In this document: positions 718 to 18,449 of the stretch, in pieces
Position numbering within the stretch: the stretch's first letter is position 1
Layout of the letters: each line of letters begins with the position of its first letter
Source of the DNA: a virus
Reading direction: 5' to 3' (one strand)
DNA length: 22,247 bases
IMG/VR virus record: IMGVR_UViG_3300030098_002125
Span: 1-22,247 of that record
The notes under the pieces: generated by a model
The model's input: only the letters and a program-made list of their open reading frames with translations
Database searches by the model: none
What the model was told of the DNA's origin: nothing
Program-made: the position numbers and the translations under genes

Positions 718-839
718 TGGCAGTACAGTTGTACCATAAACCTAAAAAAGATAACAATAAACACAATAACAAAAATCTTGAATACAAGATGACAAAATTA
801 ATTAGCCTAATAGAAAGGCTCCTTAATAAGTTAAGTTAA
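717..839 (+). CDS. Small Lys/Asn-rich protein, 40 aa
   Basis: A 40-residue frame whose ATG overlaps the nuclease stop (TAATG) and is preceded by GGAGG at good spacing. The N-terminal half is polar and probably disordered (HKPKKDNNKHNNKN). The C-terminal half is an amphipathic helix (KLISLIERLLNKLS) ending in TAA 837-839. It could be a small regulator, an oligomerising peptide or a membrane-active peptide, and the sequence does not decide. It is the last + strand gene before the convergent structural block, and the hairpin at 850-879 begins 10 nt after its stop. Confidence 0.6.
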   Translation: MAVQLYHKPKKDNNKHNNKNLEYKMTKLISLIERLLNKLS

Positions 840-849
840 TGAATAGCTA

Positions 850-879
850 GGGTAAGGTGGGTTTTAACCTATCTTATCC
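850..879 (+). terminator. Convergent-junction hairpin, likely 3' end of + strand transcripts
   Basis: Bases 850-861 pair with 868-879 in 12 consecutive pairs around a 6-nt loop. Three pairs (852-877, 857-872, 859-870) are G-U in + strand RNA and become A-C mismatches in minus-strand RNA, so the perfect stem belongs to the + transcript. No U-tract follows, so it is not a classic intrinsic terminator. It may block read-through, protect a 3' end or be a processing site. The stop codon of the minus-strand 1038-aa gene (864-866) lies in the loop. Confidence 0.4.
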
Positions 880-3800
880 AATGCTAGTATTACTGATTCT
901 AAATCTCTTTTATTAACGTTTTTCTTTTGAAAAATAGATTTTTTTCTAGACTTTTTCTTTTGGCCTAGCAACCATCTTCTGTTTTCTCTTTGTTGCTTAC
1001 TAGAAAATAATCCTAATTCTAGCCAAATAATATCTCTCAATCCATAACCACCACTATATACATTAGGAGCTGTATATGACACTGACCTTGCTAACTGTGA
1101 ATTTATTCTAGATAAAAAGTCATATGTTTCTTGAACTGTATATTCAGTATTAAACCATTTCTTACCAGTTTTTTTATAAGTTTTAAATGCTGTATCAAAT
1201 GCATTTTCCATTAACGGATCTACTTTGCCGTCTAAATTAGATTTAGCTACCATTTCATATGCGCTCATAATTAAAGGTGCATTAGGACCTAAAAATGTAG
1301 CTCCTCCTTGACCATATGTAGCTTTCATCCAATCTCTTATTAATTCACCATGAGTAAACTTTTGATAAATCTTTCCTGTAGTGTCATTTTTAATTCGGTT
1401 AATTTGATCTTCTGTTATTTCATTCGTAGCTAATTTAGCTTTAACTCTTGCATGTAAATATAAAGCTTTACCTGTTTCCATAACATCGTTTGGCATTAAC
1501 TTTTCAAAATTTGTACCCAATAAAGAGCTACCACCCCATATTAAAGCTTGCAACATAGCAAATCTCATAGGTCTCATAAATTCTTCACTTTGAAAATCCC
1601 CAGCTCTTGCTGCGCCAACATTTTGTTTAGGATTTAATCCCGCCTCTGTTAACCATTTATGCATTAAACTAGTCATTTCAAATCTATAATGTGCAAACTG
1701 ACCTAGCCCTATTTTAGCCATCATAGTAGCTTTATTTTCTTTTCCTGTAACACGTATAGCTTTAGCCTTATTCCAGTTAGAATATTCAAAATGCAAGTCT
1801 AATACACCACTATAAGCTAACTCACCAGCTTTATTTTCAACCCAATCATTCATTATCTTATCAGATTTATTACCATATTTTTCTTTTAAGTCTTTTTCTG
1901 TTATAATATAATCAGATCCTTTTTTAGATAATATATCAGATTCAAATCTTTTTAATATTTGTTGCGATCTCCATGTTCTACTTGTTTGATTTAAATTCAT
2001 AGAAGCTAATGCAAATCCAGCTCTAAAAGTTTTACTTCTATTCCAATCTTCAACTACTTTATGTAACTTGCCAGAAATTCTACCTGCATTTGCAGCAACT
2101 CTAGCTGTTCTTGCACTCCAATTTTCTGAATCTGCTACTTGTAATTCGCCATTTTTATCTACATATAAATCTTTATCTTGAATATAAGATTCTTCTAAAG
2201 CACCTCTACTTTGTGCGCTTACATTTGCGTCTTTACCTGTTGCTATATCAAAAGCATTAGATCTGACAGTTTTTCCATCAAACCATTGTAAACCATACTT
2301 TTTTTGTTGTCTAATTAATTTAGTTTGATTGTCATCTGCTGATCCTACATTCTTATAAAAATTAGGAACGTCTTTGAGCATAGCTTTATATCCAAACTCA
2401 ATAAATTCATAAGCTCTTTGCGTAGCATTTCTTGCTGCAGATCTAACATTTCCACCCATTAATCTAAAATATGTAATAGATTGCATAGTTCTCATTATAT
2501 TTTCTATATGACTACTTCTGTTAGGATCTATCTGTTGTATATCAGTATAAACATCATTAATAAGATCTAGCATCCCATTTGCTGATTCTATTAAATCTTT
2601 TCTACCTTTTTCTTTAGCAGGGTTTAAATGATCACTAACAATAGCTTTATGTGCTTTTGTAAAATTATCCTTAACATGAGTTCTATAGTTAAATATACCT
2701 ACATCACTAACATATTTATTTAAAAAGAAATATGGATCAGCATCATAAACAGGATTAGCTATAGGATTCCTACCCTTTGCTACATTAGTTATGTCATCCC
2801 AACTATTTATTTCAGCTCTTATTTCTTCAGATAGACTTCTATCATGATTTTGTACAGATGATTCTATTTTTTTTATAGTTTTTAATAAACCTAACGAATA
2901 TTGAGACATATAATGTTTAGAAAAAGCTAGTTTACCATTAGTAGAGTATTCATTTGTCTTAAAGCCTAGTTTTAAAAAATCCCTATCTGATGCTAAATTT
3001 TTATAATCAGTAGTTACGCCTTCTTCGTCTATTTGTTTTTGAAATTCTATATTTTTTATTAGTCCTTCTACTTTATCTATAACGCCAGATGCCCATTTAA
3101 CATCTTTTTCTTTAGCCATAGATTTAATTTTTTGCAAACCCCTAACAAGACCTAAAGCTCCTGCCTTTCTAATGTTCTTATAATTTTCTCTCATTTGTTC
3201 TAAAGATTTTCTTTGAATAGGAGTTAATTTAGTTCCATCAGAATTAGTTATTGTTGCAATGTCAGCGCCTTCCATAACGCTATTCATCATTTTAAATGCT
3301 TCACCAGAACCTGTCTCATAAAAGCTTTTTATCATATCTCTATTTTCTCTTAGTTTTTTAGATAAAACTTGTTTATTTTTAAGAGATGGTGATCTTAAAT
3401 ACTGTTGTTGTAAAGATGAATACTCATCATATAAGTTTCTAAGTCTTTTATGCTTGCTCAATTTCTTTTTTAACTTACTAAAAAATCCTTTTTCGCCTGT
3501 ATTTAAAGCTAAATCATTTAAGTTTTGTAGAAATTCATTAACATTCTTAGTAGAATTAACTGTATAATCCCTAAAGAATGATGTTTCATTTACTAAATTC
3601 TTTTCAAATCTTTGCAACTCAGGAAAGTTTTGCATAGCTCTTCTAGGCAAATGAAATTTAGATGCAAAAATACCTTTAGGTTTAGAAACTAAATTGTCAT
3701 AGTATTTTAATCCAAGCTCAAATCTTCTAACGTGCTTGTAGTTTACAGGAAATTCAGATGGGTTTATACTAGGTAGCTTTGTATATTTTTTCCAAAGCCA

Positions 3801-3980
3801 TTCAAATGTTTCTGGATTATTATAATTAGCATCTTTAATATTTTTATAAGCTCCTGATGCAAAATCTTTAGCTATTGATTCCATCTTATTAGCTATATTA
3901 TTTTTATCTTCAGGACTTAAATCTTTGTCCCCTTCTAGTTTTTTTCTAAAAGGATTTAATCCACATAACCATGTACTCAT
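864..3980 (-). CDS. Large polyvalent-protein-like virion protein, 1038 aa (putative ejected protein)
   Basis: This is the last gene of the leftward structural block, starting 9 nt after the giant gene ends and preceded by AAGGA. The protein is almost entirely helical, with long Lys-rich segments in the first 350 residues. The second half has a pattern I associate with the C-terminal parts of very large 'polyvalent' phage and mobile-element proteins: LMGGNVRSAARNATQ (about 507-521), an E-D-W-N-R-S-K-T-F segment (W646), FEYSNWNKAKA (W736) and LGQFAHYRFEMTSL (about 760-775). The C-terminus is strongly basic (GQKKKSRKKSIFQKK). No hydrolase or protease motif (such as HExxH) was found. Its position next to the putative polymerase suggests that it is packaged and injected, acting with the polymerase or forming part of the genome-delivery channel. 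Another structural role is possible. Coding status is certain and function is inferred. Confidence 0.7.
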   Translation of the reverse strand: MSTWLCGLNPFRKKLEGDKDLSPEDKNNIANKMESIAKDFASGAYKNIKDANYNNPETFEWLWKKYTKLPSINPSEFPVNYKHVRRFELGLKYYDNLVSKPKGIFASKFHLPRRAMQNFPELQRFEKNLVNETSFFRDYTVNSTKNVNEFLQNLNDLALNTGEKGFFSKLKKKLSKHKRLRNLYDEYSSLQQQYLRSPSLKNKQVLSKKLRENRDMIKSFYETGSGEAFKMMNSVMEGADIATITNSDGTKLTPIQRKSLEQMRENYKNIRKAGALGLVRGLQKIKSMAKEKDVKWASGVIDKVEGLIKNIEFQKQIDEEGVTTDYKNLASDRDFLKLGFKTNEYSTNGKLAFSKHYMSQYSLGLLKTIKKIESSVQNHDRSLSEEIRAEINSWDDITNVAKGRNPIANPVYDADPYFFLNKYVSDVGIFNYRTHVKDNFTKAHKAIVSDHLNPAKEKGRKDLIESANGMLDLINDVYTDIQQIDPNRSSHIENIMRTMQSITYFRLMGGNVRSAARNATQRAYEFIEFGYKAMLKDVPNFYKNVGSADDNQTKLIRQQKKYGLQWFDGKTVRSNAFDIATGKDANVSAQSRGALEESYIQDKDLYVDKNGELQVADSENWSARTARVAANAGRISGKLHKVVEDWNRSKTFRAGFALASMNLNQTSRTWRSQQILKRFESDILSKKGSDYIITEKDLKEKYGNKSDKIMNDWVENKAGELAYSGVLDLHFEYSNWNKAKAIRVTGKENKATMMAKIGLGQFAHYRFEMTSLMHKWLTEAGLNPKQNVGAARAGDFQSEEFMRPMRFAMLQALIWGGSSLLGTNFEKLMPNDVMETGKALYLHARVKAKLATNEITEDQINRIKNDTTGKIYQKFTHGELIRDWMKATYGQGGATFLGPNAPLIMSAYEMVAKSNLDGKVDPLMENAFDTAFKTYKKTGKKWFNTEYTVQETYDFLSRINSQLARSVSYTAPNVYSGGYGLRDIIWLELGLFSSKQQRENRRWLLGQKKKSRKKSIFQKKNVNKRDLESVILALDKIG

Positions 3981-3989
3981 AAATATTCC

Positions 3990-6900
3990 TTATTTACTTT
4001 TATAACAACTAAATTTATCTCTAACCATAGAGGTGACATCTTGCCTAATGCCTTTTCTTTCGCCCATATCTTTATTATTTATAGCATCTACTTCACTAAC
4101 AAATACTTTTTTAGTTCCAAAGTTTCTTAAATTGCCATCTTTACCTTGAACGTATTCAGTTTTGCCCCATTGTTTATCTATAGGTATATTAGCAGCTTCC
4201 ATAACTTTTGATGCTTTGTATAATATAACAGGATCTACACTTTTACCTGATGTTGCATAATCTATCATAACTCTTGCAGCATCTTTTTGTATCTTATCTT
4301 GCACATCTCTTTTGTTAAATATATCTTGATTTAAATACTTTTGACTAGTCATAAAGCCATCTAAACTAGCAGGTTCTGTATACATATTAGATGTTATATA
4401 GTCAACATTTACATTAGGATTTTGCGCAGACATAAAATGTGCATTTTTTAAGAAGTTAATATCATCTAATAATTCATTTGCAAAGTCTTTATAACCACTT
4501 TTAGGTTTAAACTCTCCAGATCCAATACTAGCTAATAATCCCATAATAGGCTCATGTAAGCTATTTTGTGTATATACATAATCAAATACAGCTTTTTTAC
4601 TTTGATTGTCTGTTATGCTCCTTATTGATATTCTATTATTAGATACATTAGGAACTAACATTCTTAATATTATAGCTTTTCTTTCTACATCAGATAGTTC
4701 TAAATTATTAAATATATTATCATATAAAGCTTGTCTTCTCTCTATTACATAGTCTTCAATACTAGTTCGCTCAGCTGTTCTTTTATCATTAAGCTTTATT
4801 ACTTCGCTTATAATTTTATTGTATTTTTCTTTAATATATGTATTAGCTTCATAAGAAGATATTCTTTTCATAACATTATTATTATCTCTTATAACAGGCA
4901 AACCTGCAAAAGCTTCAAATAAAACTCTAAGACCTCTTTGCTCTTCTCCATTAGTTACTTCAAACCTTCTACCATTTTTTATAGCTTTATCTTTAGATCC
5001 TATAACTTGTACATTTCTTCTTCCTGGTCTAATAACTTCCTTTATTTTACCAACAGGGTTTATTATAACAACAGGCACTTTTTCATAATTTTTGTAATCA
5101 CCTACACGTGAAAACTTAACAGGTACAGTTTTAGGAGGTTTGTTAAATTCTTCTCCCATCATATAAGATGCAGACTCTTCCATCATTATTCTTAAATCTT
5201 GAACTCTAGCTAACTTTTTATTTAAAGATTCCAATTCTTTGCTTGGTTCTGTAGACTTTTCAAATCTTTTTAACTTGTCTATTTCAAACTCTAAAGCTGT
5301 TTCTCTAGTCTTTAAATCTATTATTTTTAAATATTTAGATTCATCAGCTACAAACTCATTTAGAGCCATATTAAACATTTTATTGTATCGTTCTGTTGCT
5401 GTAGTTCCTGGGATATTAGCATAACCATTTTCTAAGTATTCTATTATTTCATCTTGCGTAGACCTAGCTTGACTAGAGCCACCTTCAGAATTTAATTTAT
5501 TTTGATACAGCTCATGCATAGATTTCATAGCTATATCATAAGGATTAGATGAATTTGCAAAGTAATCTTTTGCAGCTTGTAATCCAGGTTGCATATCTAT
5601 TCTAGGATCTATTCCCCATTTTTGAGTAGGAAGTATAGTTTTTTTGACAAACTCTACAAAAGCATTATTATAGCTTTCTAGTGATGCAGCTCTACTTTGA
5701 CCAGAAGGATCAGTTTCCATACCTTGATTGTATTTTAAATATTTATTTAATGGTACTATTAATCTATTTCTAACAGCTTCTACTATTGGTCTATTTGCAG
5801 GCGCATCTACATTAAAATCATCTGATTGTATTTTTATAAAATCACCTTTTTCATTTCTATATCCTAATTCAAATATACCATCTGCACCAAACATAACTTT
5901 AGTTTGCATATCTGTTATAGCTTCAAAGCTAGCATCAAATTTAGAAGGAAGTTTATCATAAATATCTATAAACTTAATAGCTAATTTACCAATATTATCT
6001 ACAGTAGTTATATATTTTGCACCTGTATTTAGTCTTAGTTCCATAGTTTTAACTTTAGGTCCTAATCTATTAGTTTCCATTGTTAATACTGTAGAGTTTC
6101 TTCTAAACATATTAGATAAATATGTAGCTGTTTGATGCATTTTTACAAATTGACCTTTAGCATTGTTTACTTCAGTAACTAACATGTCTGTAGTAGGATC
6201 AGCATCAAATAAGTTTACAATAGTATTTGCATATGAATTAGGACTATCTATATTAGGATCAAATATTTCATTTATCTTTCCATCTATATTGTTAGTTCCT
6301 TCTATATATCCACCTATTCTACCTGCTTCTCTCCAAAATCTTCCAGGTGCAGCTACATAATTAAATGATTTGTCAAAGTCAAAATCAGCATCTTGTGGTT
6401 TTATAGCATCACTATGATTCATTCTACTTACATTACCAGAGTTCTTATCTACATGCGATCTTTTGACACCACCAACTTCTTCAACTGCCATTTTACTTAT
6501 AACAACATCACCCATCATATTTCTAGGCTGTCTACTATTTAACATGCCAATAGCCATATTTTTGTCAAACTCTTTTATTATTAAATTAGCATCATTTAAT
6601 GTTGTATGCGTATCAATTAATAAATCACCATTAGCATCTTTTTGCGATAATGCATCTGATTCTTTTTTTATAGCATTGTCGTAAGTCTTTTTGTTAGCTT
6701 TTTTATCGCCTTTTAATATTGTTCTTGTATCTATATCTATAAGATTACCACTCTCATCAATATACCTACCTTCTACTTGTAAATATTTCTTTCTATCTAC
6801 ATTAAAAAAGTATGCATCTGCTGTTCTTGAACTACCATTTTCAGCTGTATAGCTAACTCTTTGTATTATAGCATTATGAGCTGTATTTGTAGCAGGATTA

Positions 6901-9900
6901 TCGCTTGGTATAAATTTCTTTTGAGCTGCAAAATATGAAGGTAAAAATTCTCCAAAGTATTGTACTGTAGGCCTATCTCCTACCTTAGATCTTACTGTAA
7001 TGTCAAGATTACCCATGTCTGCTGTCATAACATCTAAAGAACCATTTTCAACTTGACCACCAGCTATATTTCCATTATTCATAAAGTAGCCTATTAAATT
7101 GTCGTTTAAACGCTTAATAGCCCAGGGCTCTAGTAATAACCCATTTCTTGCTAAAACTGATGATATAGCGCTATTTATAGACGCAGGATCACCACTATCT
7201 GCTCTAGCACCAAATACTTTCTGCGCTAAGCCTGTTCTAAAGTAAGGATTGTTATAGCTATTTTGTATTCCTGCATTTAAATTGTTTATTTTTTGATCTA
7301 AATTTATCCACTCTCTTATTCCTGAGTTATTTGCCATATGAACTGCAGCATTTGCACCTACTAAAGGATTGTGTTCTTTAGATATAGTTCTTAAACTTAA
7401 AGCTTCTAATGGTATTTCTACCAATCTGTTTGGATCTGTTATGTTAGCTCTATTGGTTATATAGCTATCCCAATTTTGATCAAGATTATCTGTACCTTTA
7501 ACACCTGAATAGTTGTTATCATTATATTGCTCACCTGCTTTTGGTTTAATAGAATTAATTTTATTAGCAGATTTAAAAGTTATGGCATCTATTTTTAAGT
7601 CTTTCATTATGTCGTCTAACAATGGATTATATTTAAATGCTGTTTTTCCAAACCATTCTTGCACTCTTCCATATGTACTGCTAGATTTATCAATGTCTAC
7701 TACAGAATGTGTTATTGTAGGTTTTATTCCTCCAGATTTAAACCCTGTAACTTTATTATTTATATCTGTTCTAACCATTTTAGGACTCAATCCTATCATA
7801 GCTAAAGATGCTAAATAAAAATCTTTAGAAACAAACATTTCTCCGTCTACTATAGATTTAGTAACTTCTGATATTCTTTTAATCTCTCTATCATATGTAT
7901 CTTGATCAATAAGTTTATTAGCAAGCTTATCATCTAAAGATTTAGTAGCTCTATCTAAAGAACTAAATATATTGCCTAGTTGATTTCCATTTGCATCTGT
8001 TAATATAGCTTCATCATCTATTGATAAAGTTTTTAATTTTCTAAAGTTACCATTTGCATCAGGAGTAACCCAATCTTTTATATCTTCATATACGCTTTTG
8101 TATAAATCGGAACTAGCATTTTTATATATTACCCCTGTTTTAGCTCTATTGCTTTCTGTTGGTATATACCCATTTTTAGTTTCATTTAACTTATCTCTTT
8201 TAAATCTATTCTTTATATATTTATGATTTAAGTCTATTTCTTCTACTCCAACAACTTTATCTATAGCTCCTGGCATATTTAAAATCATTCTAGTTAACTT
8301 AATAGCTTCTACTACAGAATCATCACCATTAGATAAGTTTCTTATATTGTTTAGCTTTTTAAGTATATTAGCATGTTTTTCTAATGTTACATTGCCATCA
8401 AGTATAGCTTCTAAAGTCTTAAACATTAATCCGTCTTTACCAAATTGCTCTTTAATGTTGTCATGCAAAGAACCTTTAAATTTATCTACTCTAACTACTA
8501 TAGAAGTTGATTCATTCATAGGTATTATTCTATATCGCTCTACCTGATCAGCTTGTGAAAAGTTTGTCCTTTTAATCTCTTCAATAGTGTCTGTTTTATA
8601 AAGCTCTGACTTTCCTTTTGCATTGCTTATTTTAAATCTACCACTTTGCAAGCTAGTGTTATAATCTAATAACTTATTACCATTTATATCTCTTATAACA
8701 TTTCCATTTTTATCTACACCACTTCTTTCAGCTAGGTATATAAAATCTTGATTAGGATCTAAAGCTTTTATAATTCCACCAAATCCTCTATCTGATGTCT
8801 CTCCTATAACTTTATACCCTTGATGTAATTTATTGTTTTTAATGTCTATTTTTACTGTTTTAATAGGTATTTTAGAAAAGTATCCCGAAACTACAGAATA
8901 CAAATCGCTATCCATTTCAGCTTGGCTAGGTCTACTAGCTTCATTCATGGCCATTACTTCTGATTGCATTCTTATTTTTATAGGATCAACAATTAGTTTA
9001 TTAAAATTATCATTATCTAATGCGACATCACCTGATAAATTTTTAAGAGTTTGTACAGCTTTAAATGCTTGTGACATTAATTGTTGATTAGACTTTAAAG
9101 TTTCTGGCAATCTATATATATCACCTAGAACATCTTCAGCAAACTTATTTATATCTGCAGATGCTATTCTTCCTGTCCTATCTATGTCAAATATCTTATC
9201 TAAATCACTAGTAGATATTTTATATTTTGTAGAAAATTGAGCTGTAGTAAGTTTAGTTATTTTATCTTGTATATCTTTTTCAGGTATATTATAATTAGAT
9301 ATTTCTTCTTTAATAAAGTCTTGTATATTGGCTTCGCTTAAAACTATTTGTCTAGCTTCGCTTTGTATATCTGTAGATATTTTAACTATCTGTCTTGCAT
9401 ACTCTAATCTATCTGAATTTTTAGGGTTATAAGAAAGCATGTTTAGTATATTTCTTATATCACTTTCTTTTTTGCTAGCAGCCCTCAATACATAAGGATT
9501 ATTTTCTATTAAAGCTGTCTTTAGTGTCTTTCTTAAATTTAATGTAGCTTTTTTATTGTTATATAATTCTGATAATTGCTTACTGTACCTATCTTTAATA
9601 TTTGTGTCTAAGTTATCTGCACCCATTAGAATGTTTTCTATTAGCAATATATCTTTTTCCATTTGTGAAAGATTTTTATCAAGCACATCTACAGTAGCTC
9701 TAGCTTTACCATTAGACCAGTTATCCATAGCAGCTTCACCAGTAGCTAATGATTTTTGTAAAGACTTAATCCAGTCACCGTCTTTTGCTTGTAATACAGT
9801 ATCGTCAAATCCTACAGGAGCTTTAGCTAATTCTACCTTATTGACAATTTCTTCATAGTGTTCTTTAAGCCTTTTAAACATTTCAGGACTAATACTATTG

Positions 9901-12900
9901 CTTTCCTTAGCAGATATTAATAATTTTTCTACAGCTCCTAGTGAAGGGAATATGGGTTTAACACCATCTTCTTGATAGTTAAATCCTACATCTTTCATTA
10001 GTGTAACTAAACTTGCTTTAACATCTATGCCTCCAGGTATATCATTTATACCTATTTTACTTATAGCTTTTTGTGTTATATAGTCTTGAAAGTCATTATA
10101 AGCATTAGTATTGCTAAATAAATCCCCTGTAGCAGATTCTATTTTTTCTTTTAAAGCAGTAGCTTCATCAAATGATATTACCTTACCATTTTTAGATAGT
10201 ATATTAGGATTTAAAGATTTAATAGCTGATTGTACTTTATCTAAAAATTCTACTACCTCTCCATAGTTTTCTGTTTTATCACCTTCTTTTCTAACTTGTA
10301 GCTTACCTCTTGTAAGTAAGTATTGGTTAATAGCATCTTTAATAGATTCTGCATCATTTATTTTTATACCATGCTCAGAGCCATCTGTAAATAATTCATA
10401 TGCTTGTCTTCTTTGTTGATGTTTTAATAAGTCAGAATAAGACAAACTCCAAACAGGATTTATTAAAGCTAGAGGATCAAATTCCTTAGACTTTTTCCAG
10501 TTATCTCCCCATATATGACTCATTAAAGACTCTGTAGATCTAATAAATTGTTGCTGAGCTTTAGCTATTTGTTCTTTACCTAAATTAACTTCTGAAGCTC
10601 TTAATTGCTGTCCTTCAACTATCCATCCATTTTTTCTTCCCATGCCATACAATACATCAACAGTTTCTCTGATTCTATTATCATTAAAATTAATATTAGT
10701 AACATCAGGCATTACCAATGCACCGTCTTCATTATACCTATTTACATCATATGGTAACTCTAATTCGTCTAGCAAGTTTCTTAAAAAATCTCTTTGTATT
10801 TCTTGTGGCCTATTGACAGATTTTGTTATATTTTTTTCCATCCATTCATCTAGTTCAAAAGACATATTATTAGCTGATAATGTTTTACCATTAAACTTAA
10901 TAGCTGCTAGCTTAGTTACTATATCTAAAGCTTGATCAGGTGTAAAGCTAATTGACTGTACTTCTCCTGTATTTGCTTCATATTCTTCTAATATTCTTTG
11001 AGCTACAGATAGTTTTTCATTTAGAGCTAATGCTTGGTCATATGTTATTTCATTATTTTTAACCATATCAGCTATTTTTTTATTAAAAGAAGTCATTAAA
11101 TCTGCACCACCCATATTATCTGCACCAGATATAGACGATAATATTTCATTAACTTCAAAAAACTCTCTAGTATTATCTAACGATGACTTAATAATATTTC
11201 TAGCGTCTGCATAGTTTTCTAAGTCTGTATTGCCATAATTATTTACTATAGCATTTAAACCTTCAGCATCTGCGCCAAATGTTTTCATACTACCTACAAT
11301 TTTTCTTAATTGACTAGCTTTACTATTAAAGTAATTATCTATATTACCTGTTTCAAATACATTTTTAAATCCTTTAGATCCTATATCTGCATGAAAACTA
11401 TGAGGTCTTCTTGTAAAAAATGCAGCAGTAAATATATTAGCTGCTATTTCTTCTGGTGTTCCTCCTAAAGCTATCTTTGCATTTTCTAGCGATGCTCCAT
11501 TTCTATAAAAATTTTCTAACAATCTAGGAGTATTCATCGCTACTATACCAGCTGCCATTCTAGGAGCAGATTTCATAACATCAGTTCCAAATTCACCAAT
11601 CCAATATTTAGGTGCTTGCATAACAAATTTGCTTCTTATTTCAGAAAGCATTTCTCTCATTATTTGTGTATCTTCATCAGATGTTGCATCTTTAAACCAT
11701 TGCTTTCCACCGCTTATAGTTTTTCCTCTATATTTACCACTTAATTGACTTGTTAAATAGCCATCAGACAACTCATCCATAGCAGTTAACTGCATTCTTA
11801 ATTCTTTATTAGTATATTTATTTAATGGTTTCCAATAAGATTTAAATGAGTTTTTAAACAAAGAGCCTAATCTACCAATATGACTAGCTTGTGTACCACC
11901 CTTTAAGAATGATACTGGTCCCATCATAGAATAATAAAAGCTTTCTTTTACAGCTTCATCCCACCATCTATTATAAGTACTACCTATATTAATATCGTAG
12001 TTTCCTATATATTCAGGCTCTCTATACTCATTATAATCAACACCCATTGTTTTCTTTTGAGCTATTTGAGCACCAACTCTTATAGTTCCTAATCCAAATC
12101 CAATAGCTGCATCATATGCTGCCGCACCAATTATAGCTCCTGCCGCAGGTCCAGCTCCTGGTACTTTTCTACCTAACATAGTTAGTAATGAAAAAGCATC
12201 ATTAGGATTATTCTTACTTACTATTTCAACAGTTTCTTTAGATATAGCTTCTAATATTTCATCATCAGCTATTTGTAATGTCTTCCCTATATTTTCTTTT
12301 ATTTGACTTTTAAATACATCTTGATATACATCTTTAGTAACATTATTTTCTATAGCATTTATTATATTAGAGTCATTTTTAACATTATATGCATCATCTA
12401 TAATCTTACTAGCTTTACCACCCTTTAAGCTCTCTGCTACATCTTTAATACCTTTTTTAAATGGTAGATTATCAGCAGCTTTAATAAGATCATCAGTAGA
12501 CATTTTTGTAGCTAATTTGGCTGCTCCTAAAAGCTTTCCACCAGTTCTAATACTACCCCCTGCAATTCTAACTGCTGGTATTAATGCTGGTAAATTACCT
12601 AGCATACCACCAACTATAGCTCCTGCCTTACCAGATGGAGATAATTGATCCCAATTTCCTGCCGCTCCACCAGCTAACATTTCTTCCCAAGTTTCTTCAC
12701 CAGGTTCAACTTTTTCTAAAAAAGCATCCCTTGCTCCTAATGTTCCAAACGAAGCTTGGTCTAGTGTGTTCCATAGAGCTTGTCCAGCAAAGTCATATAA
12801 AGCGCTTCCTGTAGTTCCTATGTCTACATCTGGTTCATCTACCCACTCACGTCTATTTTTTTTCTCTTCAATGAGTAGTCTTGTTACATAATCTAAGTTG

Positions 12901-12914
12901 TCTATATTTGCCAT
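3990..12914 (-). CDS. Giant protein with two-barrel (DPBB) RNA polymerase motifs; putative virion RNA polymerase, 2974 aa
   Basis: One uninterrupted frame of 2974 codons. Near the N-terminus are Gly/Ala-rich hydrophobic stretches (about 96-133 and 250-287, the latter VPGAGPAAGAIIGAAAYDAA), typical of membrane-active ejected proteins. The core signal is at 2126-2190: N-S-R2128-Q-P2130-x4-G2135-D2136, then ADFDFDKSFNYVAAP with D2177, D2179 and D2181. R-x-P-x4-G-D followed by D-x-D-x-D matches the catalytic barrel of RNAP beta' (NADFDGD), RNA-silencing polymerases (LDGD type) and YonO. The usual Gly is Phe, and crAss-like virion polymerases also lack that Gly as I recall. A candidate beta-type lysine pair is K1781-S-A-N-K1785. 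No T7-type polymerase motifs were seen. The predicted role is Mg-dependent RNA synthesis on early promoters after injection with the genome. The start directly follows the upstream stop, with only a weak SD (AGAAGAAAA). The rest of the protein is unassigned. A degenerate, inactive barrel is the main alternative. Confidence 0.75.
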   Translation of the reverse strand: MANIDNLDYVTRLLIEEKKNRREWVDEPDVDIGTTGSALYDFAGQALWNTLDQASFGTLGARDAFLEKVEPGEETWEEMLAGGAAGNWDQLSPSGKAGAIVGGMLGNLPALIPAVRIAGGSIRTGGKLLGAAKLATKMSTDDLIKAADNLPFKKGIKDVAESLKGGKASKIIDDAYNVKNDSNIINAIENNVTKDVYQDVFKSQIKENIGKTLQIADDEILEAISKETVEIVSKNNPNDAFSLLTMLGRKVPGAGPAAGAIIGAAAYDAAIGFGLGTIRVGAQIAQKKTMGVDYNEYREPEYIGNYDINIGSTYNRWWDEAVKESFYYSMMGPVSFLKGGTQASHIGRLGSLFKNSFKSYWKPLNKYTNKELRMQLTAMDELSDGYLTSQLSGKYRGKTISGGKQWFKDATSDEDTQIMREMLSEIRSKFVMQAPKYWIGEFGTDVMKSAPRMAAGIVAMNTPRLLENFYRNGASLENAKIALGGTPEEIAANIFTAAFFTRRPHSFHADIGSKGFKNVFETGNIDNYFNSKASQLRKIVGSMKTFGADAEGLNAIVNNYGNTDLENYADARNIIKSSLDNTREFFEVNEILSSISGADNMGGADLMTSFNKKIADMVKNNEITYDQALALNEKLSVAQRILEEYEANTGEVQSISFTPDQALDIVTKLAAIKFNGKTLSANNMSFELDEWMEKNITKSVNRPQEIQRDFLRNLLDELELPYDVNRYNEDGALVMPDVTNINFNDNRIRETVDVLYGMGRKNGWIVEGQQLRASEVNLGKEQIAKAQQQFIRSTESLMSHIWGDNWKKSKEFDPLALINPVWSLSYSDLLKHQQRRQAYELFTDGSEHGIKINDAESIKDAINQYLLTRGKLQVRKEGDKTENYGEVVEFLDKVQSAIKSLNPNILSKNGKVISFDEATALKEKIESATGDLFSNTNAYNDFQDYITQKAISKIGINDIPGGIDVKASLVTLMKDVGFNYQEDGVKPIFPSLGAVEKLLISAKESNSISPEMFKRLKEHYEEIVNKVELAKAPVGFDDTVLQAKDGDWIKSLQKSLATGEAAMDNWSNGKARATVDVLDKNLSQMEKDILLIENILMGADNLDTNIKDRYSKQLSELYNNKKATLNLRKTLKTALIENNPYVLRAASKKESDIRNILNMLSYNPKNSDRLEYARQIVKISTDIQSEARQIVLSEANIQDFIKEEISNYNIPEKDIQDKITKLTTAQFSTKYKISTSDLDKIFDIDRTGRIASADINKFAEDVLGDIYRLPETLKSNQQLMSQAFKAVQTLKNLSGDVALDNDNFNKLIVDPIKIRMQSEVMAMNEASRPSQAEMDSDLYSVVSGYFSKIPIKTVKIDIKNNKLHQGYKVIGETSDRGFGGIIKALDPNQDFIYLAERSGVDKNGNVIRDINGNKLLDYNTSLQSGRFKISNAKGKSELYKTDTIEEIKRTNFSQADQVERYRIIPMNESTSIVVRVDKFKGSLHDNIKEQFGKDGLMFKTLEAILDGNVTLEKHANILKKLNNIRNLSNGDDSVVEAIKLTRMILNMPGAIDKVVGVEEIDLNHKYIKNRFKRDKLNETKNGYIPTESNRAKTGVIYKNASSDLYKSVYEDIKDWVTPDANGNFRKLKTLSIDDEAILTDANGNQLGNIFSSLDRATKSLDDKLANKLIDQDTYDREIKRISEVTKSIVDGEMFVSKDFYLASLAMIGLSPKMVRTDINNKVTGFKSGGIKPTITHSVVDIDKSSSTYGRVQEWFGKTAFKYNPLLDDIMKDLKIDAITFKSANKINSIKPKAGEQYNDNNYSGVKGTDNLDQNWDSYITNRANITDPNRLVEIPLEALSLRTISKEHNPLVGANAAVHMANNSGIREWINLDQKINNLNAGIQNSYNNPYFRTGLAQKVFGARADSGDPASINSAISSVLARNGLLLEPWAIKRLNDNLIGYFMNNGNIAGGQVENGSLDVMTADMGNLDITVRSKVGDRPTVQYFGEFLPSYFAAQKKFIPSDNPATNTAHNAIIQRVSYTAENGSSRTADAYFFNVDRKKYLQVEGRYIDESGNLIDIDTRTILKGDKKANKKTYDNAIKKESDALSQKDANGDLLIDTHTTLNDANLIIKEFDKNMAIGMLNSRQPRNMMGDVVISKMAVEEVGGVKRSHVDKNSGNVSRMNHSDAIKPQDADFDFDKSFNYVAAPGRFWREAGRIGGYIEGTNNIDGKINEIFDPNIDSPNSYANTIVNLFDADPTTDMLVTEVNNAKGQFVKMHQTATYLSNMFRRNSTVLTMETNRLGPKVKTMELRLNTGAKYITTVDNIGKLAIKFIDIYDKLPSKFDASFEAITDMQTKVMFGADGIFELGYRNEKGDFIKIQSDDFNVDAPANRPIVEAVRNRLIVPLNKYLKYNQGMETDPSGQSRAASLESYNNAFVEFVKKTILPTQKWGIDPRIDMQPGLQAAKDYFANSSNPYDIAMKSMHELYQNKLNSEGGSSQARSTQDEIIEYLENGYANIPGTTATERYNKMFNMALNEFVADESKYLKIIDLKTRETALEFEIDKLKRFEKSTEPSKELESLNKKLARVQDLRIMMEESASYMMGEEFNKPPKTVPVKFSRVGDYKNYEKVPVVIINPVGKIKEVIRPGRRNVQVIGSKDKAIKNGRRFEVTNGEEQRGLRVLFEAFAGLPVIRDNNNVMKRISSYEANTYIKEKYNKIISEVIKLNDKRTAERTSIEDYVIERRQALYDNIFNNLELSDVERKAIILRMLVPNVSNNRISIRSITDNQSKKAVFDYVYTQNSLHEPIMGLLASIGSGEFKPKSGYKDFANELLDDINFLKNAHFMSAQNPNVNVDYITSNMYTEPASLDGFMTSQKYLNQDIFNKRDVQDKIQKDAARVMIDYATSGKSVDPVILYKASKVMEAANIPIDKQWGKTEYVQGKDGNLRNFGTKKVFVSEVDAINNKDMGERKGIRQDVTSMVRDKFSCYKSK
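6372..6386 (-). other. Codons of the D-x-D-x-D catalytic motif
   Basis: GAT TTT GAC TTT GAC on the minus strand encodes D2177-F-D-F-D2181 of the giant protein. In the DPBB RNA polymerase superfamily the three Asp residues hold the catalytic Mg ion. The flanking residues (ADFDFDKSF) follow the beta' pattern ADFDGDQMA apart from the Gly. Confidence 0.7.
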
Positions 12915-13889
12915 TTATTTATTTTCTTCTAATAATTGTATTAATTCTGGTAATGTTGTGTACCCATTTTCTATCAAAGGTGTAATATTTGCACTACTCA
13001 ATATACCCCTTTGTTCATCTCTAAACTTTACAATATCATCTGCTTCTTCTTCTATTTGATTAAGAGGCGCTAATATAGCTTTTAAAGAATCTCTTTCTGC
13101 ATAAGCCTCAGACAATCTATCTTGTGTAGCGCCAATAGTATTGCCAGGTCCTATTCTTTTATTGACTGGATCCCAATTTAACTTTCTGTTTTCTATTTTT
13201 TCCATACCATCGCCATAAACATAATCAAACATTCCTGCTGGTACTTGCATAGCTAGCTTAGTTAAAGCTGGTATGGCTGCTGAAAAGAAAGGTATAGCTG
13301 TTTCATCTTCATCCCAACCAGTTACCTTAGAAACTGTTTTAGGATTTACAAATCCTAATGTTAATGCTTGAGCAGCAGGTAAAAAAGGTGATAGGATTTG
13401 ATCTACTTTATACAATGGATTATCTTTATCCCACCCTACTATTGTAGATCTTTCGTCAAAACTTTTTCTTTCTGATGATATAACATTCTGTAAATTTAAT
13501 ATTCTTTTGTTAACAATATCAATATCATCTTCTAATGCTTCTTGTTTTATTCTATGTTGCTTTACTCCTTCAACTACATCTTTACCAAACAATTCCTCAT
13601 CTTGCATTACAGATTTTTCATATATATTTTTAAGAGTATTCAATATAACTTCATTACTATAATCTTTAGAAAACATATATTGATTGCTTTCAGGATTGCC
13701 TTTTTCTTGAATCATAGTTTGCATCATAGTAGTATTGATTTGCTCTCTTAGTCCTAAAGCATCTACAACATCTGATACAGGCGCTGATATTGTAGCTCCT
13801 TCTATAAACCCTGATGTTAGATATTTATTTTTATCTTCAAAAGTAGGCATGCTATTTAATTCATTCATTATTACATCTGTCAACTGCAT
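12915..13889 (-). CDS. Helical internal-virion / ejection-type protein, 324 aa
   Basis: This gene directly precedes the giant gene and its stop abuts that ATG. The first 140 residues are mostly helical and polar. Residues about 115-145 form a likely coiled coil (EALEDDIDIVNKRILNLQNV). A moderately hydrophobic stretch at about 160-225 (SPFLPAAQALTLGF, IPFFSAAIPALTKLAMQVPAG) could insert into or contact membrane, and a second coiled-coil-like region follows at about 260-300. No signal peptide, lytic transglycosylase or catalytic motif is visible. Order in the operon and composition resemble the ejection proteins of T7 (gp14-16), P22 (gp7/16/20) and N4. That is an analogy, since I see no sequence homology. 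AGGA lies about 11 nt before the start. Confidence 0.65.
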   Translation of the reverse strand: MQLTDVIMNELNSMPTFEDKNKYLTSGFIEGATISAPVSDVVDALGLREQINTTMMQTMIQEKGNPESNQYMFSKDYSNEVILNTLKNIYEKSVMQDEELFGKDVVEGVKQHRIKQEALEDDIDIVNKRILNLQNVISSERKSFDERSTIVGWDKDNPLYKVDQILSPFLPAAQALTLGFVNPKTVSKVTGWDEDETAIPFFSAAIPALTKLAMQVPAGMFDYVYGDGMEKIENRKLNWDPVNKRIGPGNTIGATQDRLSEAYAERDSLKAILAPLNQIEEEADDIVKFRDEQRGILSSANITPLIENGYTTLPELIQLLEENK

Positions 13890-13891
13890 AT

Positions 13892-15142
13892 CTATTCTAT
13901 TCCTAATTTTCTAAGTTGATTATCTATATCCACACCAGTATTTAAACTATCTAAATCGCTAGGCTCTATTTGATCATTTTCTGTAAAGCCACCTAACATA
14001 TCATTGCCTTGTATTTTTTTAATTTGTGTAGCAAAATCATCAAAAGATACACTAAACCCAAAAAAATCTTGAGCTACTTTTTCTATTTTATCAGCTATAA
14101 GCTTTTGATTAGCATTTTTCTTATTAAGTCTAGCATAATTCTTATAAGCTTCGTCTATTAGATTATAAAAAGCTGAATAGTCAGGTTGTATATATGTATT
14201 GCCCTCTTTTACGCCTTTTGCAAGTTGAAGCATTTCAGTATAGTCATTCCAAAATGGTAAATCTAAACTAATTTTTTGTTGCATTAGAGTAGATAAGCTT
14301 GCTTCTATATTAACTTTTATTTCATCTGCTTTTTGTGCCGAAGCAATTCTTTGATCTTCAGGTAAAGTTTCATCATTGGCTATACTACTAAGCGCAATAA
14401 AGTGATTGTACCCGCTTTTTATTCTTGCATTCTCAACAAATCTTCCTGTTTGCTCTGTTTCGCTTAACTTTCCTTTGTCTGTATATAAATTAAGCTTTTG
14501 TTTTTGTATATCTACTGCTAATTTTCGCTTGTTTAATTCATCTATAACAGCGCCCATAGAGCCTTTATGTTTAGCTTGTATTCCTTCAAAAAAAGCTTCT
14601 TGACTAACTCCTTTTAATTCAGGTCTTGAGTTTATGTATTCTTTAAACTTTTTATCAGAAAAATCTCCTACATCCCAAAGCTCTGGATCTATACCACCTT
14701 CATAAGAATGAGCCATTCCTGTATAAAAGTCTTTAATTAAATCTGTTTGTTGAATCTTTGATTTTAAATCTTGATTTATTGATCTATATCCAGCTAGTTG
14801 TTCTTTTTTAGCTTTTGCTATTTTAGTATAATCAGCTACAGTATTGCCTGTTAAATTATCAAGAACACTTAAAACATTATTACTTTGTTCTGAGTCATTT
14901 AATTTATAAATAGTATTAGTAGCATCTTCGTAAAACTTTATATTTTGATTAATTTCATTTTGTATTTTAGCAGACTCTCCTTCAGTGTATTTAATTATAC
15001 TATCTAATACTTTTAAATTATTAGCATCTCTTGCTTGTTGACTAGCTAGCTCTATTTCTTTAGTCTTTGCGCTTGCAGCAAAACCTGCTTGTGCAATATC
15101 TGATAACATAGCTAATGCTTGTAGTGCTTCTGAGTTTCCCAT
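13892..15142 (-). CDS. Helical, coiled-coil virion protein, 416 aa (putative ejection protein)
   Basis: The start overlaps the upstream stop by one base (TAATG) and has GGAGA at good spacing. The N-terminus is Ala/Ser-rich (SEALQALAMLSDIAQAGFAASAKTKEIELASQQ), a pattern seen at the start of many phage internal virion proteins where a short amphipathic helix leads into a long coiled coil. Residues about 35-135 are strongly helical with regular Asn, Lys and Glu. The middle (about 150-185) has a more mixed stretch around EGGIDPELWDVGDFSD. The C-terminus is acidic. No enzyme motif was found. Its likely role is an internal core or DNA-ejection component working with the neighbouring helical proteins and the giant polymerase. 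Position and composition support this, without a recognised family. Confidence 0.65.
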   Translation of the reverse strand: MGNSEALQALAMLSDIAQAGFAASAKTKEIELASQQARDANNLKVLDSIIKYTEGESAKIQNEINQNIKFYEDATNTIYKLNDSEQSNNVLSVLDNLTGNTVADYTKIAKAKKEQLAGYRSINQDLKSKIQQTDLIKDFYTGMAHSYEGGIDPELWDVGDFSDKKFKEYINSRPELKGVSQEAFFEGIQAKHKGSMGAVIDELNKRKLAVDIQKQKLNLYTDKGKLSETEQTGRFVENARIKSGYNHFIALSSIANDETLPEDQRIASAQKADEIKVNIEASLSTLMQQKISLDLPFWNDYTEMLQLAKGVKEGNTYIQPDYSAFYNLIDEAYKNYARLNKKNANQKLIADKIEKVAQDFFGFSVSFDDFATQIKKIQGNDMLGGFTENDQIEPSDLDSLNTGVDIDNQLRKLGIE

Positions 15143-16038
15143 TATACATCTCCTTCATAATTCTGCAACCAACTATCAAAAGGATTAGCCATAGAGTCTG
15201 CAGGTTTTCCTGTAGCTGAAGTGTAATCCATAAATAACTGAGTTCTTTCTTTTCTTGCTTGATCAAGTAAGGCTTGTTCTTGTTGTTTTTTACCAAATTC
15301 TATTCTTTCTAAAGAAGTTTCATAATCTTGTTGCATCCTTTTCATATTGTCCCTGCTTAGATTATTAGCTGTTCCTGAAAATGCTAAATTAGATTGGCTT
15401 ATAGCTTGATCTGTAGATGTCCTTAAATCTTGATAGTTTCTTCTAAATCCAGTTGTTTGGTCATCTATTTGAAATTGTGTTTCTTGTTCTAATTCTCCAC
15501 CTGGCCCTAAAACTCTTTGTGCTCTTCGTGCTAAATCAGCAGTACCTGTTTGTAAAAGATCTTCAGCTTGTGCTTCTAATCGAGTTTCATCACTATCTCC
15601 TTTAGTAAACCAGCCAGATCCATACATAGGAAATACATGCGCAGCAACAGAATTTTCTCCAAACCAAAAATCAGCAGCATCGTCATCCCAAGCCGAAGAT
15701 ATAACAGGAGGAGTACCCCCTGGAAGATTGCCACCAAGTATTGTATCAACACTATCATAAATATCTTGTAAACCTTCAACAATACTGCTATGATGAGCTG
15801 GATGACCTGCTGGCCAATGATCTTTTTTCCATCCTCCAATAGCACTTCCATGATATTCTTTTAATCCTGTACTAGGATTTGTAGTGCCTGCTCCCATTGA
15901 TTTAATTATAGGAGTGGCTAAGCTCTTTCCCAATCTATCATATAGAGATGCTTCCATATTATTAACATGAGCAGGACTGCCATCTATATTCCTTATCTTT
16001 GTATCGCCAAATCTTCCTTTGTTTGCTAATTTATTCAT
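15142..16038 (-). CDS. Virion protein with His/Trp-rich centre and helical C-terminus, 298 aa
   Basis: Starts after AAGGAGA at short spacing and ends in a TAATG overlap with the 416-aa gene. The first 150 residues are Gly/Trp/His-rich and look globular: GGWKKDHWPAGHPAHHSS (about 68-85) holds four His within ten residues and might bind metal. FWFGENS and FPMYGSGWF follow. Residues about 150-275 are helical, including a segment (QSNLAFSGTANNLSRDNMKR, about 215-234) with the Ala-Phe-Ser-Gly pattern that recurs in internal proteins of marine podovirus-like phages, and a Lys/Gln/Glu-rich coiled coil. The role is probably an internal virion or tail-adaptor component between the tail genes and the ejection proteins. 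The family is not recognised. Two hydrophobic frames inside this gene are shadows. Confidence 0.65.
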   Translation of the reverse strand: MNKLANKGRFGDTKIRNIDGSPAHVNNMEASLYDRLGKSLATPIIKSMGAGTTNPSTGLKEYHGSAIGGWKKDHWPAGHPAHHSSIVEGLQDIYDSVDTILGGNLPGGTPPVISSAWDDDAADFWFGENSVAAHVFPMYGSGWFTKGDSDETRLEAQAEDLLQTGTADLARRAQRVLGPGGELEQETQFQIDDQTTGFRRNYQDLRTSTDQAISQSNLAFSGTANNLSRDNMKRMQQDYETSLERIEFGKKQQEQALLDQARKERTQLFMDYTSATGKPADSMANPFDSWLQNYEGDV

Positions 16039-16046
16039 AATTCTCC

Positions 16047-16730
16047 TTAATCAAATATAGCATCTAATCCTGTCAATGCTAAAGATCCTACACCTCCTAT
16101 AACATTTAATCCAGGAATCAAGCTCATACCTGCTAGTGCTGTTCTTCCTACTGATAATCCTTTATCTACTTCAGATTTTTTATCAAAGTTTTGATACATA
16201 TCGTATAAGCTTGCTCCAAAGCCTAAAGCTCCTGCTGCTTGTCCAAAAGTCACACCGCCTAATCCTGCTTTACTAGTAGTTGTTGTAGTTAACTCAGGCA
16301 TTCCTGCACCTACAACTTTAGAAGCGCTTGTAGTTTCTTGTCCAGGCATAATAGGATTAGACATAAAATTATCTATTTTAGAATAAGAATTTGCAACATT
16401 ACTTTCATTAGATATTAATGATTTAGCTTTAGTAAGCTCAGGAGTACCTTCTTCTAATGTAGGATTTATCATTACCCTTTTACTAGCAGGAGTAAAAAAT
16501 CTTTCAAACATTCCTGCTTTCATATATTCAGGGTTCATATCAAATAAACCAGTAGCCATTAATTCTTTGGTTTTTAAATTCTGAGTTCCAGAATATATAT
16601 CTATTAAATTCTTGCCTATTGTTAATCCAGCTTGTTTCTTTTTAGCTTTGTTCATTTCTAGCTCTTCTAACTCATCTCTCAATAATTTAAATTGATATTG
16701 ATAATCTGGATTTGATCCTAAAGTTGCCAT
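16047..16730 (-). CDS. Small internal-virion-type protein with glycine-rich C-terminal helices, 227 aa
   Basis: Preceded by AAAGGAAG and separated by only 8 nt from the next gene. Residues 10-35 form an acidic then basic helix (LLRDELEELEMNKAKKKQAG). The middle is Ser/Thr-rich and low complexity (ELTTTTTSKAG, about 146-155). The C-terminal 70 residues contain two Gly/Ala-rich hydrophobic segments: VTFGQAAGALGFGASLYDMY (160-179) and ALAGMSLIPGLNVIGGVGSL (198-217). The glycine spacing fits a helical hairpin that packs in or against a membrane, as proposed for small ejection proteins such as T7 gp14. A holin is a weaker alternative, because the long polar N-terminus and the operon position favour a virion protein. 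Confidence 0.65.
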   Translation of the reverse strand: MATLGSNPDYQYQFKLLRDELEELEMNKAKKKQAGLTIGKNLIDIYSGTQNLKTKELMATGLFDMNPEYMKAGMFERFFTPASKRVMINPTLEEGTPELTKAKSLISNESNVANSYSKIDNFMSNPIMPGQETTSASKVVGAGMPELTTTTTSKAGLGGVTFGQAAGALGFGASLYDMYQNFDKKSEVDKGLSVGRTALAGMSLIPGLNVIGGVGSLALTGLDAIFD

Positions 16731-16748: not shown

Positions 16749-16862
16749 TTACTGCGCATTAATCCAATCTATTATTTCATTTATTTTATCAATTAACTCT
16801 GATATTATTAAACTATTCTCATCATCACCTAATAAATCTTTATTTGTATCTAATTTATCCAA
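16749..16862 (-). CDS. Small acidic protein with TTG start, 37 aa
   Basis: This frame fills what would otherwise be a gap between the fibre gene and the 227-aa gene. It starts at TTG (16860-16862), which overlaps the fibre stop by 8 nt, and has GGAGG exactly 6 nt upstream. It ends at TAA 16749-16751. The peptide is acidic (DKLDTNKDLLGDDENS) and closes with an amphipathic helix (ISELIDKINEIIDWINAQ). No ATG start exists in this frame here. The SD spacing, the coupling and the lack of stops support it. Function is unknown; a fibre chaperone or small assembly factor would fit the location but is a guess. Confidence 0.6.
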   Translation of the reverse strand: MDKLDTNKDLLGDDENSLIISELIDKINEIIDWINAQ

Positions 16863-18237
16863 ATGTAGCCTCCAGTGAAAAAACGCTATACCAAAAATAA
16901 TAACTAGATGTGTTAGTTGTAGTTCTTCTAAGCATAGGTATTAATATATCCCCTGCTGATAGTGATACACTTAATCCAGTTTCTTCTAATTTTTCATACA
17001 TTGAAGTTGTTTTAGATCCTGATTGTGTAGATCCTACTTGTGACAGTGTATGATTGCCATTGGTTCCCCAGTTAGGAGATGCTTTTAATAATTTAAATTC
17101 ATAGGTTGCTGATCCTGTTGGCCTTCCTTGTAAAGTATATCTGTTTAATGTGCAATTTTTAGGCACTACTATTATAGGATTATAAGTATCTAACCAACTA
17201 GCTAATAGGCCATTACCATTATCTTTATTCCATTGATAATATGATGCTCCATAAGTAGTTGATGGACTAAACCATCTGTCATATCTAGTATAATATCTTT
17301 GAGACCATTGTGGAGTCCAATAAGCTGAACCACCTCCACCCCCACCTCCTGCTAAGCTAGAACCATTAGTTATTTGAACATCATTACCTGCATCATTAGT
17401 AAAATATAAATTATTAGGAGTATCATTTTTAACCCAAACTTGACCATATGAAGAAGAATCAGATACAGCGCTTGCAGACTCTTTAATTTTAACAGGCAAA
17501 TCACTTCTTAGCTCAGCATCTTTAATAAACAATACATCGCTATCATCTTTCATAAATATTAAATCAGTACCATCAGAGTATATTTTATCATTATTATCGT
17601 AAGTATTAAATACTATAGCATTTTGTGTTGTAAGGCTTATATCAAAAGATGTAGAAACTCTACTATTAGCTTCATCTAATGTTAACATTTTATCACCACC
17701 AACATACATATCTAATACATCATCAGAAGATTCTTGTATATAAGTATGACCACCACCAGTAGAGCCAATAGCATTGTCAAAAAATAATTTACTTGTAGCT
17801 CTAGCGCCTATATCTCCCGTTCCATGGATTCCTAATATATTTGTATATGCATTGGCCGTAGAATTAGACGATCCACCTGCTAATGTAGTTCTTAAATATA
17901 CACTACCACCTACTGCTGTACCTGTACCTTGACCACCTTCTAAATACAATCTATATCCTTCTGCATTAGCACCTGTTGTTGGATTAATAGTAACATATGA
18001 ATGCGAACCGTCAAAGCTTAAAGTATTATTATTTAAACTAATTGTTCCATCTGCTATTAACTGACCTAAAAAAGTAATTACAGCATTTGTGTCATTACCT
18101 ATGCTAAAATTGCCTGATATAGCAGATAACCGAGATATAATACTAGAAGAGTCTAAAGCTACACTTACCTTACCCTGTCTATTATTAACAGTTAAACCGC
18201 TTAAATCTAATATTTTAACACCTTTTATTTTAGCCAT
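16855..18237 (-). CDS. Tail fibre / receptor-binding protein, 460 aa
   Basis: The N-terminus (about 1-60) probably joins the tail. Residues about 65-245 are beta-rich with repeats of the type seen in marine phage fibres: SKLFFDNAIG, HTYIQESSDDVLDMYVGGDK, DKIYSDGTDLIFMKDDS. The 250-290 segment (KIKESASAVSD, YGQVWVKNDTPNNLYFTNDA) is a common fibre module placed before the tip. A run of seven Gly (297-303) forms a hinge. The tip (304-460) is rich in Tyr, Trp and Ser (YWTPQWSQRYYTRYDRWF) and looks like a beta-sandwich binding head for sugars or proteins on the host surface. No C-terminal S74-type chaperone domain is present, and the protein ends shortly after the beta strands. Its ATG overlaps the stop of the 70-aa gene by one base; SD is weak, so translation is probably coupled. 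Confidence 0.8.
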   Translation of the reverse strand: MAKIKGVKILDLSGLTVNNRQGKVSVALDSSSIISRLSAISGNFSIGNDTNAVITFLGQLIADGTISLNNNTLSFDGSHSYVTINPTTGANAEGYRLYLEGGQGTGTAVGGSVYLRTTLAGGSSNSTANAYTNILGIHGTGDIGARATSKLFFDNAIGSTGGGHTYIQESSDDVLDMYVGGDKMLTLDEANSRVSTSFDISLTTQNAIVFNTYDNNDKIYSDGTDLIFMKDDSDVLFIKDAELRSDLPVKIKESASAVSDSSSYGQVWVKNDTPNNLYFTNDAGNDVQITNGSSLAGGGGGGGSAYWTPQWSQRYYTRYDRWFSPSTTYGASYYQWNKDNGNGLLASWLDTYNPIIVVPKNCTLNRYTLQGRPTGSATYEFKLLKASPNWGTNGNHTLSQVGSTQSGSKTTSMYEKLEETGLSVSLSAGDILIPMLRRTTTNTSSYYFWYSVFSLEATFG

Positions 18238-18449
18238 TATGATATAATTGTAATTCCTTCCATATCAGATCCTTTTATCATTTCTCTTTTGTATAAAGAT
18301 CCATTATAAACTGTATAAATAAACAAACCTTCATTTGTATGTCTAAGAGTTAATACCCCTTCTTTTAATTCGCTTGGGATAGGCTCTCCTCTTTTTACAG
18401 AAATTGTTTCTTGCTTTTTATGTATTAAGTTTCTAGCATTTCTATCCAT
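18237..18449 (-). CDS. Small beta-rich fibre-associated protein, 70 aa
   Basis: Sits between the tail-hub gene and the fibre gene, with one-base TAATG overlaps on both sides and AAGGA before its start. After a basic N-terminus come G-E-P-I-P-S-E-L-K-E-G-V-L-T-L-R-H and GLFIYTVYNGSLYKREM. This pattern (a short statement of a value, then a strand ending in an N-G-x-L-Y turn) resembles small marine phage proteins that precede fibre genes and the N-terminal strands of some fibres. It may be a fibre attachment or trimerisation partner. It has no membrane segment or catalytic motif. The role is inferred from position and strand-like composition. Confidence 0.7.
   Translation of the reverse strand: MDRNARNLIHKKQETISVKRGEPIPSELKEGVLTLRHTNEGLFIYTVYNGSLYKREMIKGSDMEGITIIS

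Follow-up and report, generated by a model that had tools for sequence, protein, structure and literature searches.

A giant phage protein with a predicted single-chain two-barrel RNA polymerase, probably carried in the virion

Here we describe a 2,974-residue protein encoded in the IMG/VR virus record IMGVR_UViG_3300030098_002125, a stretch of 22,247 bases (G+C ~30%) that was analyzed as a whole and is hereafter called the window. This giant protein is very probably a DNA-dependent RNA polymerase (RNAP) of the single-chain, two-barrel type that is carried in the virion and enters the cell for early transcription. In the predicted structure, residues ~1300–2480, roughly the middle third of the chain, form a single-chain two-barrel RNAP fold with intact catalytic residues. 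We further infer catalytic activity, a DNA template, packaging, ejection and a role in expressing the early genes.

An earlier note, made by reading this DNA without database searches, had pointed to the motif R2128-x-P-x4-G-D2136 and to the aspartates D2177, D2179 and D2181 in the giant open reading frame (ORF). Both are present as described, on the minus strand, which had gone unmentioned. The segment RQPRNMMGD begins at R2128, and four alternating aspartates, D2175, D2177, D2179 and D2181, sit in PQDADFDFDKSF. The Gly-rich hydrophobic stretches noticed toward the N-terminus are likewise there, residues 97–115 and 260–278 being the two most hydrophobic segments of the protein. Taken by itself, the motif proves little. 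Because a D.D.D pattern arises in 3463 of 5000 shuffles of the giant protein (69%), the motif alone is weak evidence; a loose form of the whole pattern, R.P.{3,5}[DS].{25,60}D.D.D, appears in 86 of 5000 (1.7%). It is conservation and fold that carry the case.

With the full-length giant protein as query, Pfam, PHROGs, the PDB sequences and 50,697 phage records gave no match, and neither IMG/VR nor the genomes searched yielded a relative. Pfam recognized no polymerase family in it, and a PF00940 (T7-type RNAP) search of 11 records gave no hit, nor did its control search. Relatives surfaced only when 91 residues of the motif region were used to query IMG/VR, which yielded 12 loci whose complete giant ORFs align over nearly the full length at 34%–53% identity. 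Profile searches raised the total to ~45 IMG/VR loci, the most distant members being ~11%–20% identical to the window protein, depending on the region. A profile scan of bacterial and archaeal genomes revealed no relative of the giant protein, and distant family members used as queries likewise went unmatched among the phage records. In an alignment of 35 giant proteins, residues R2128, P2130, D2175, D2177, D2179, D2181, K2182 and S2183 of barrel A are invariant (35/35), and the motif is the strongest conservation peak of this family of IMG/VR relatives. The Asp triad, on whose conservation among homologs the earlier note had staked its claim, is thus fully retained. About 400 residues N-terminal of the motif, K1731, P1732, K1757, T1758 and K1785 are invariant in all 35 proteins as well. 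Moreover, identity in the distant members climbs from ~15% to 28% in just two stretches, residues 1651–1800 and 2101–2250, which is the pattern expected of two separate catalytic barrels in a single chain.

The family profile of residues 1300–2480 was aligned by hhalign to eight crAss-type RNAPs, among them gp66 of Cellulophaga phage phi14:2 (Crassvirales; PDB 6VR4), which we matched to AGO48955 (2,180 aa, locus tag gp077, KC821624) and number according to the deposited translation. Over 206 columns, the top alignment reached a score of 57.9 (E 2.9e-5), compared with 18.5 for the reversed template and 27.7 for the top of 60 block-shuffled templates. The aligned stretch corresponds to barrel B and the segment leading into it, and barrel A is matched only at the motif. 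Within it, K1731, K1757 and K1785 pair with K1011, K1026 and K1064 of gp66, each of which is invariant in all eight crAss-type RNAPs. In barrel A, R2128-x-P2130 corresponds to R1321-x-P1323 of gp66, and D2177, D2179 and D2181 to D1360, D1362 and D1364. The Asp motif contributed nothing to the first hhalign score and showed up in a short match of its own, correctly ordered; the homology is therefore independent of the motif first noticed. On this comparison, the giant protein is homologous to the crAss virion RNAPs at the profile level. A Gly-to-Phe change within the Asp motif had been taken as the mark of a divergent branch, a view that does not hold: because the crAss enzymes, gp66 included, carry Ile or Val at this position and not Gly, the Phe in D-F-D-F-D does not set the family apart. 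Wza constructs in the PDB gave short profile matches of 26 residues around DADFDLDK, which were set aside as chance.

The structure of residues 1300–2480 was predicted by AlphaFold2 from the window protein and 34 homologs, yielding a model with a pLDDT of 83 and a pTM of 0.83. In a Foldseek search against the PDB, the sole match below 1e-3 was 6VR4, the virion-packaged RNAP of phi14:2 (E 9.9e-7, probability 1.00), with maize RDR2 and then RNA polymerase I as runners-up. By VIA-align, 6VR4 (Z 10.2 over 728 residues) was followed by P74-26 gp62 (Z 9.8 over 450 residues), RDR2 and QDE-1 (Z 8.3–9.1 over 500–556 residues) and the largest subunit of Pol I/II (Z 8–9 at model residues ~650–1015, the barrel A side), Z values of 8–10 being only slightly over the usual background for large models. 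Among the predicted viral structures of BFVD, 21 matches fell below 1e-3; the top five are unnamed, and the named ones belong to crAss-like phages and the uncultured virus NIOZ-UU157. Two-barrel RNA polymerases are thus the closest structural counterparts of the predicted fold, and the proposal of a single-chain two-barrel RNAP of the gp66 kind is strongly supported by the fold, the shuffle-controlled profile alignment and the matching lysines, R-x-P and Asp triad. Given that the loop of the Asp triad is modelled at low confidence (model residues 874–879, pLDDT below 50) and that the TM-scores to 6VR4 are modest (0.32/0.19), the geometry of the active site is deduced from the sequence. Within the chain, some 1,150 all-helical residues come before the polymerase. 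Residues 30–1150 were modelled as almost entirely helical (AlphaFold2 pLDDT 78, pTM 0.53), with no convincing fold or sequence match (top Foldseek E 0.37) and no likeness to known ejection protein folds.

Table 1. Features of the window, numbered from its first base.
Feature	Positions	Strand	Basis
Giant protein, 2,974 aa: helical N-terminal region, predicted two-barrel RNA polymerase and C-terminal region	3990..12914	-	Open across 2,974 codons; ~45 homologous IMG/VR loci
Predicted RNA polymerase region, residues 1300–2480	5475..9017	-	AlphaFold2 model; top PDB match 6VR4; hhalign to crAss RNAP profile
Putative barrel B (beta-like) catalytic region, residues 1690–1800, with K1731 (IKP), K1757 (GKT) and K1785	7515..7847	-	Invariant 35/35; aligned with gp66 lysines
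Putative barrel A (beta'-like) active-site segment, residues 2128–2183: R-x-P...G-D and D-x-D-x-D-K-S	6366..6533	-	Invariant 35/35; gp66 counterparts
All-helical region, residues 30–1150, with two Gly-rich hydrophobic stretches	9465..12827	-	AlphaFold2, Foldseek, hydrophobicity
C-terminal region, residues 2470–2974, with invariant Cys C2970	3993..5507	-	Alignment
Companion protein, 1,038 aa, next gene downstream of the giant gene	864..3980	-	Homologue directly downstream in 34/34 loci
324-aa protein directly upstream of the giant gene, probable small internal virion protein	12915..13889	-	Position
Three small candidate internal/ejection proteins (416, 298 and 227 aa), encoded between the tail and polymerase genes	13892..16730	-	Position only
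460-aa fibre-like protein, short stretch resembling tail fibre adhesins	16855..18237	-	PHROG 2056 E 2e-4; Pfam GP38 E 9e-4, under curated cut-off
1,144-aa tail-type protein	18449..21883	-	Position and size only

The genes around the giant ORF are virion-type by position, with the tail and fibre genes located upstream on the same strand (Table 1). To this extent its reported setting among ejection-type genes stands, although Pfam and PHROGs confirmed no individual ejection gene in the window. The 1,144-aa protein has no Pfam match, the companion belongs to no Pfam or PHROG family, and the 324-aa protein has a recognizable homolog at the equivalent place in close relatives only. In the relatives, a companion homolog of ~1,000 aa comes next after the giant gene on the same strand at every one of 34 loci, in most of them with little or no gap. 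Past the companion, opposite-strand genes usually begin, including a DnaB-type helicase of ~580 aa; upstream of the giant gene lie several smaller genes and then tail genes. In relatives whose contigs reach the head genes, these include a portal of PHROG 156 (Pfam P22_portal), a terminase of PHROG 38 and, in one relative, an SU10-type capsid protein, whereas the portal, capsid and terminase of phi14:2 fall into PHROGs 6547, 11589 and 6681. By portal, capsid and terminase family, as judged on the relatives (the window itself is without these genes), the phage group is not Crassvirales. The companion also shows no detectable relation to crAss001 gp49 or phi14:2 gp076. Upstream of the putative early genes of three relatives we found no shared promoter motif, and repeats there did not exceed those in shuffles.

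Several further features of these genomes deserve mention. Outside the polymerase, a rare conserved spot lies in the helical N-terminal region, where S449, R452, G456 and M460 (window 11535–11570, minus strand) are invariant (35/35). C2970, which lies five residues from the C-terminus of the giant protein, is likewise invariant in these 35 proteins, and the Cys at position 6 of the companion is invariant in 31 of 31; these two cysteines might possibly mark an interface or link between both proteins. At 391–717 on the plus strand, the window encodes a protein resembling Hjc-type Holliday junction resolvases (Pfam PF01870, E 6e-6, above cut-off). One relative (IMGVR_UViG_3300030107_003883, 37826–41852) carries an apparent ubiquitin-like cluster consisting of a ThiF/E1-like protein, a JAB-like peptidase just under the cut-off and a 68-aa ORF that is beta-grasp-like by eye; a similar gene with a small ORF, by resemblance only, is found in another (IMGVR_UViG_3300037634_004666, 9001–10760).

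An 82.9-kb contig (IMGVR_UViG_3300030107_004423) appears to consist of two related phages joined, given that its early-gene block, from helicase to resolvase, is present twice (3–3546 and 53465–58000, ~65%–98% identity). A near-identical Hjc-type resolvase gene adjoins the polymerase module in this contig. The first phage encodes a polymerase of the window type. In the equivalent place, the second encodes P0003, a protein of 2,830 aa that BLAST aligns with the window type only in the vicinity of the N-terminus (26% identity over 154 residues). The motif of P0003 is the canonical DWDGD, and its single sequence aligns by hhalign to the family profile over barrel B with an E of 4.7e-5. P0003, a single example of which no further copies were found, looks like a relative that has diverged deeply and occupies the same genome slot.

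On these grounds, a putative model for the action of the giant protein may be outlined. Barrel B would provide K1731, K1757 and K1785, and barrel A would contribute R2128 together with D2177, D2179 and D2181, which would bind the metal. The leader formed by residues 1 to ~1250, helical and with hydrophobic Gly-rich stretches, would most likely pack the protein in the head. Upon infection, the leader, together with the small proteins encoded nearby and the 1,038-aa companion, would help the giant protein to traverse the short tail and to build the entry channel or travel along it, the protein exiting ahead of or together with the DNA. Finally, the polymerase domain would transcribe the first phage genes from the incoming DNA inside the cell, without the host enzyme. 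We infer packaging, exit with the DNA and first-gene transcription from the precedents of crAss-like phages and P23-45; for packaging in the virion, the position of the gene, the fused helical N-terminal region and the additional precedent of N4 point the same way.

The enzyme might instead be an active two-barrel RNAP that is made after infection and stays unpackaged, like the non-virion P23-45 gp64 or YonO, and the second-ranked VIA-align match, P74-26 gp62, is indeed of the non-virion type. We consider this unlikely, given that the gene lies in the virion block beside small internal-type genes and the conserved companion, that the DnaB-type replication genes of the relatives are on the opposite strand, and that the protein has ~1,250 extra helical residues and a virion enzyme as its top structural match. 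Distinctly less probable is a two-barrel polymerase with another template or product, either RNA-templated like QDE-1 and RDR2, which VIA-align finds nearly as similar as 6VR4, or primase-like: in Foldseek, the DNA-dependent phage enzyme leads by a margin of four orders of magnitude in E, and it is the crAss enzymes that the profile comparison detects. In addition, RNA-templated synthesis is of little use to a dsDNA phage. It is barely credible that the polymerase is a catalytically dead remnant retained as a structural ejection protein, since no catalytic position varies among 35 proteins whose identity elsewhere drops to 11%–20%; nothing positive speaks for such a remnant, plausible as a structural role is for the other regions. 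A chance motif in an unrelated helical ejection protein, an idea that could appeal to the frequency of D.D.D in shuffles and to the lack of a Pfam or PHROG family, is contradicted by the conservation, profile and fold results and may safely be dismissed.

With a virion-carried polymerase as the preferred reading, a broader proposal can be made, to which we give slightly less than an even chance. The window would belong to an undescribed, diverse lineage of uncultured short-tailed phages with its own deep branch of two-barrel virion RNAPs, fused to a helical channel-making or threading part such that entry of the DNA is mechanically coupled to early transcription, and a sister phage would hold a diverged DWDGD version in the same position. 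What is new here is the separate phage lineage, the fusion layout and the fact that current family libraries do not recognize it; the strategy of a two-barrel virion RNAP is known. We found no description of this family of RNAPs in the literature searched; an earlier account may exist elsewhere, and unnamed entries with the same fold are present among the deposited viral proteins in BFVD. The family would extend the strategy of a virion-carried single-chain two-barrel RNAP to a separate phage lineage of ~45 uncultured contigs, and add another fusion architecture for testing the coupling of DNA entry and first transcription. The diverse sequences of the family should also be useful for tracing the relationships among cellular, RNA-silencing and phage polymerases.

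Among known systems, the closest parallel is found in the crAss-like phages, whose RNAP proteins are virion cargo (PMC10172136). The gp66 of phi14:2 is the best PDB fold match, has the barrel B lysines, R-x-P and D-F-D-x-D-K in the same order, and is a single chain whose neighbours are giant structural proteins. However, it is ~800 residues shorter, has no leader of such length and shows no BLAST-level similarity to the window protein; the portal, capsid and terminase families of phi14:2 differ from those of the window phage's relatives, and the companion is not detectably related to the crAss neighbours. In Thermus phage P23-45, gp96 is a virion RNAP joined to the tape measure, for which action at the entry pore has been proposed, and gp64 is a non-virion RNAP (PMC10770324). 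P23-45 gp96 resembles the giant protein in that a two-barrel RNAP is contained within a giant virion protein and coupling of DNA entry to transcription has been proposed. In this long-tailed phage, however, the RNAP lies N-terminal to the tape measure, whereas in the window protein a helical region precedes the RNAP, and the phage group has a P22-type portal. YonO of SPbeta and QDE-1/RDR2 are two-barrel single-chain polymerases with a catalytic Asp triad (PMC5467207), but they are non-virion, much smaller and match more weakly. Marine Caudovirales with a multi-subunit RNAP are likewise uncultured phages with a two-barrel enzyme, which is described as made of separate beta and beta' subunits (PMC7481178); the window phage in contrast has one chain, which Pfam does not recognize. 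The gp50 of phage N4 (Schitoviridae) comprises a helical N-terminal injection region of ~1,000 residues, a T7-like polymerase and a C-terminal region needed for encapsidation (PMC5512222). This three-part layout in a giant virion protein of a short-tailed phage is reminiscent of the window protein, yet the T7-like polymerase has an unrelated fold, so that the likeness is one of layout and not of homology. The giant protein may work like the N4 virion RNAP but, to judge by its predicted fold, is unlikely to be one.
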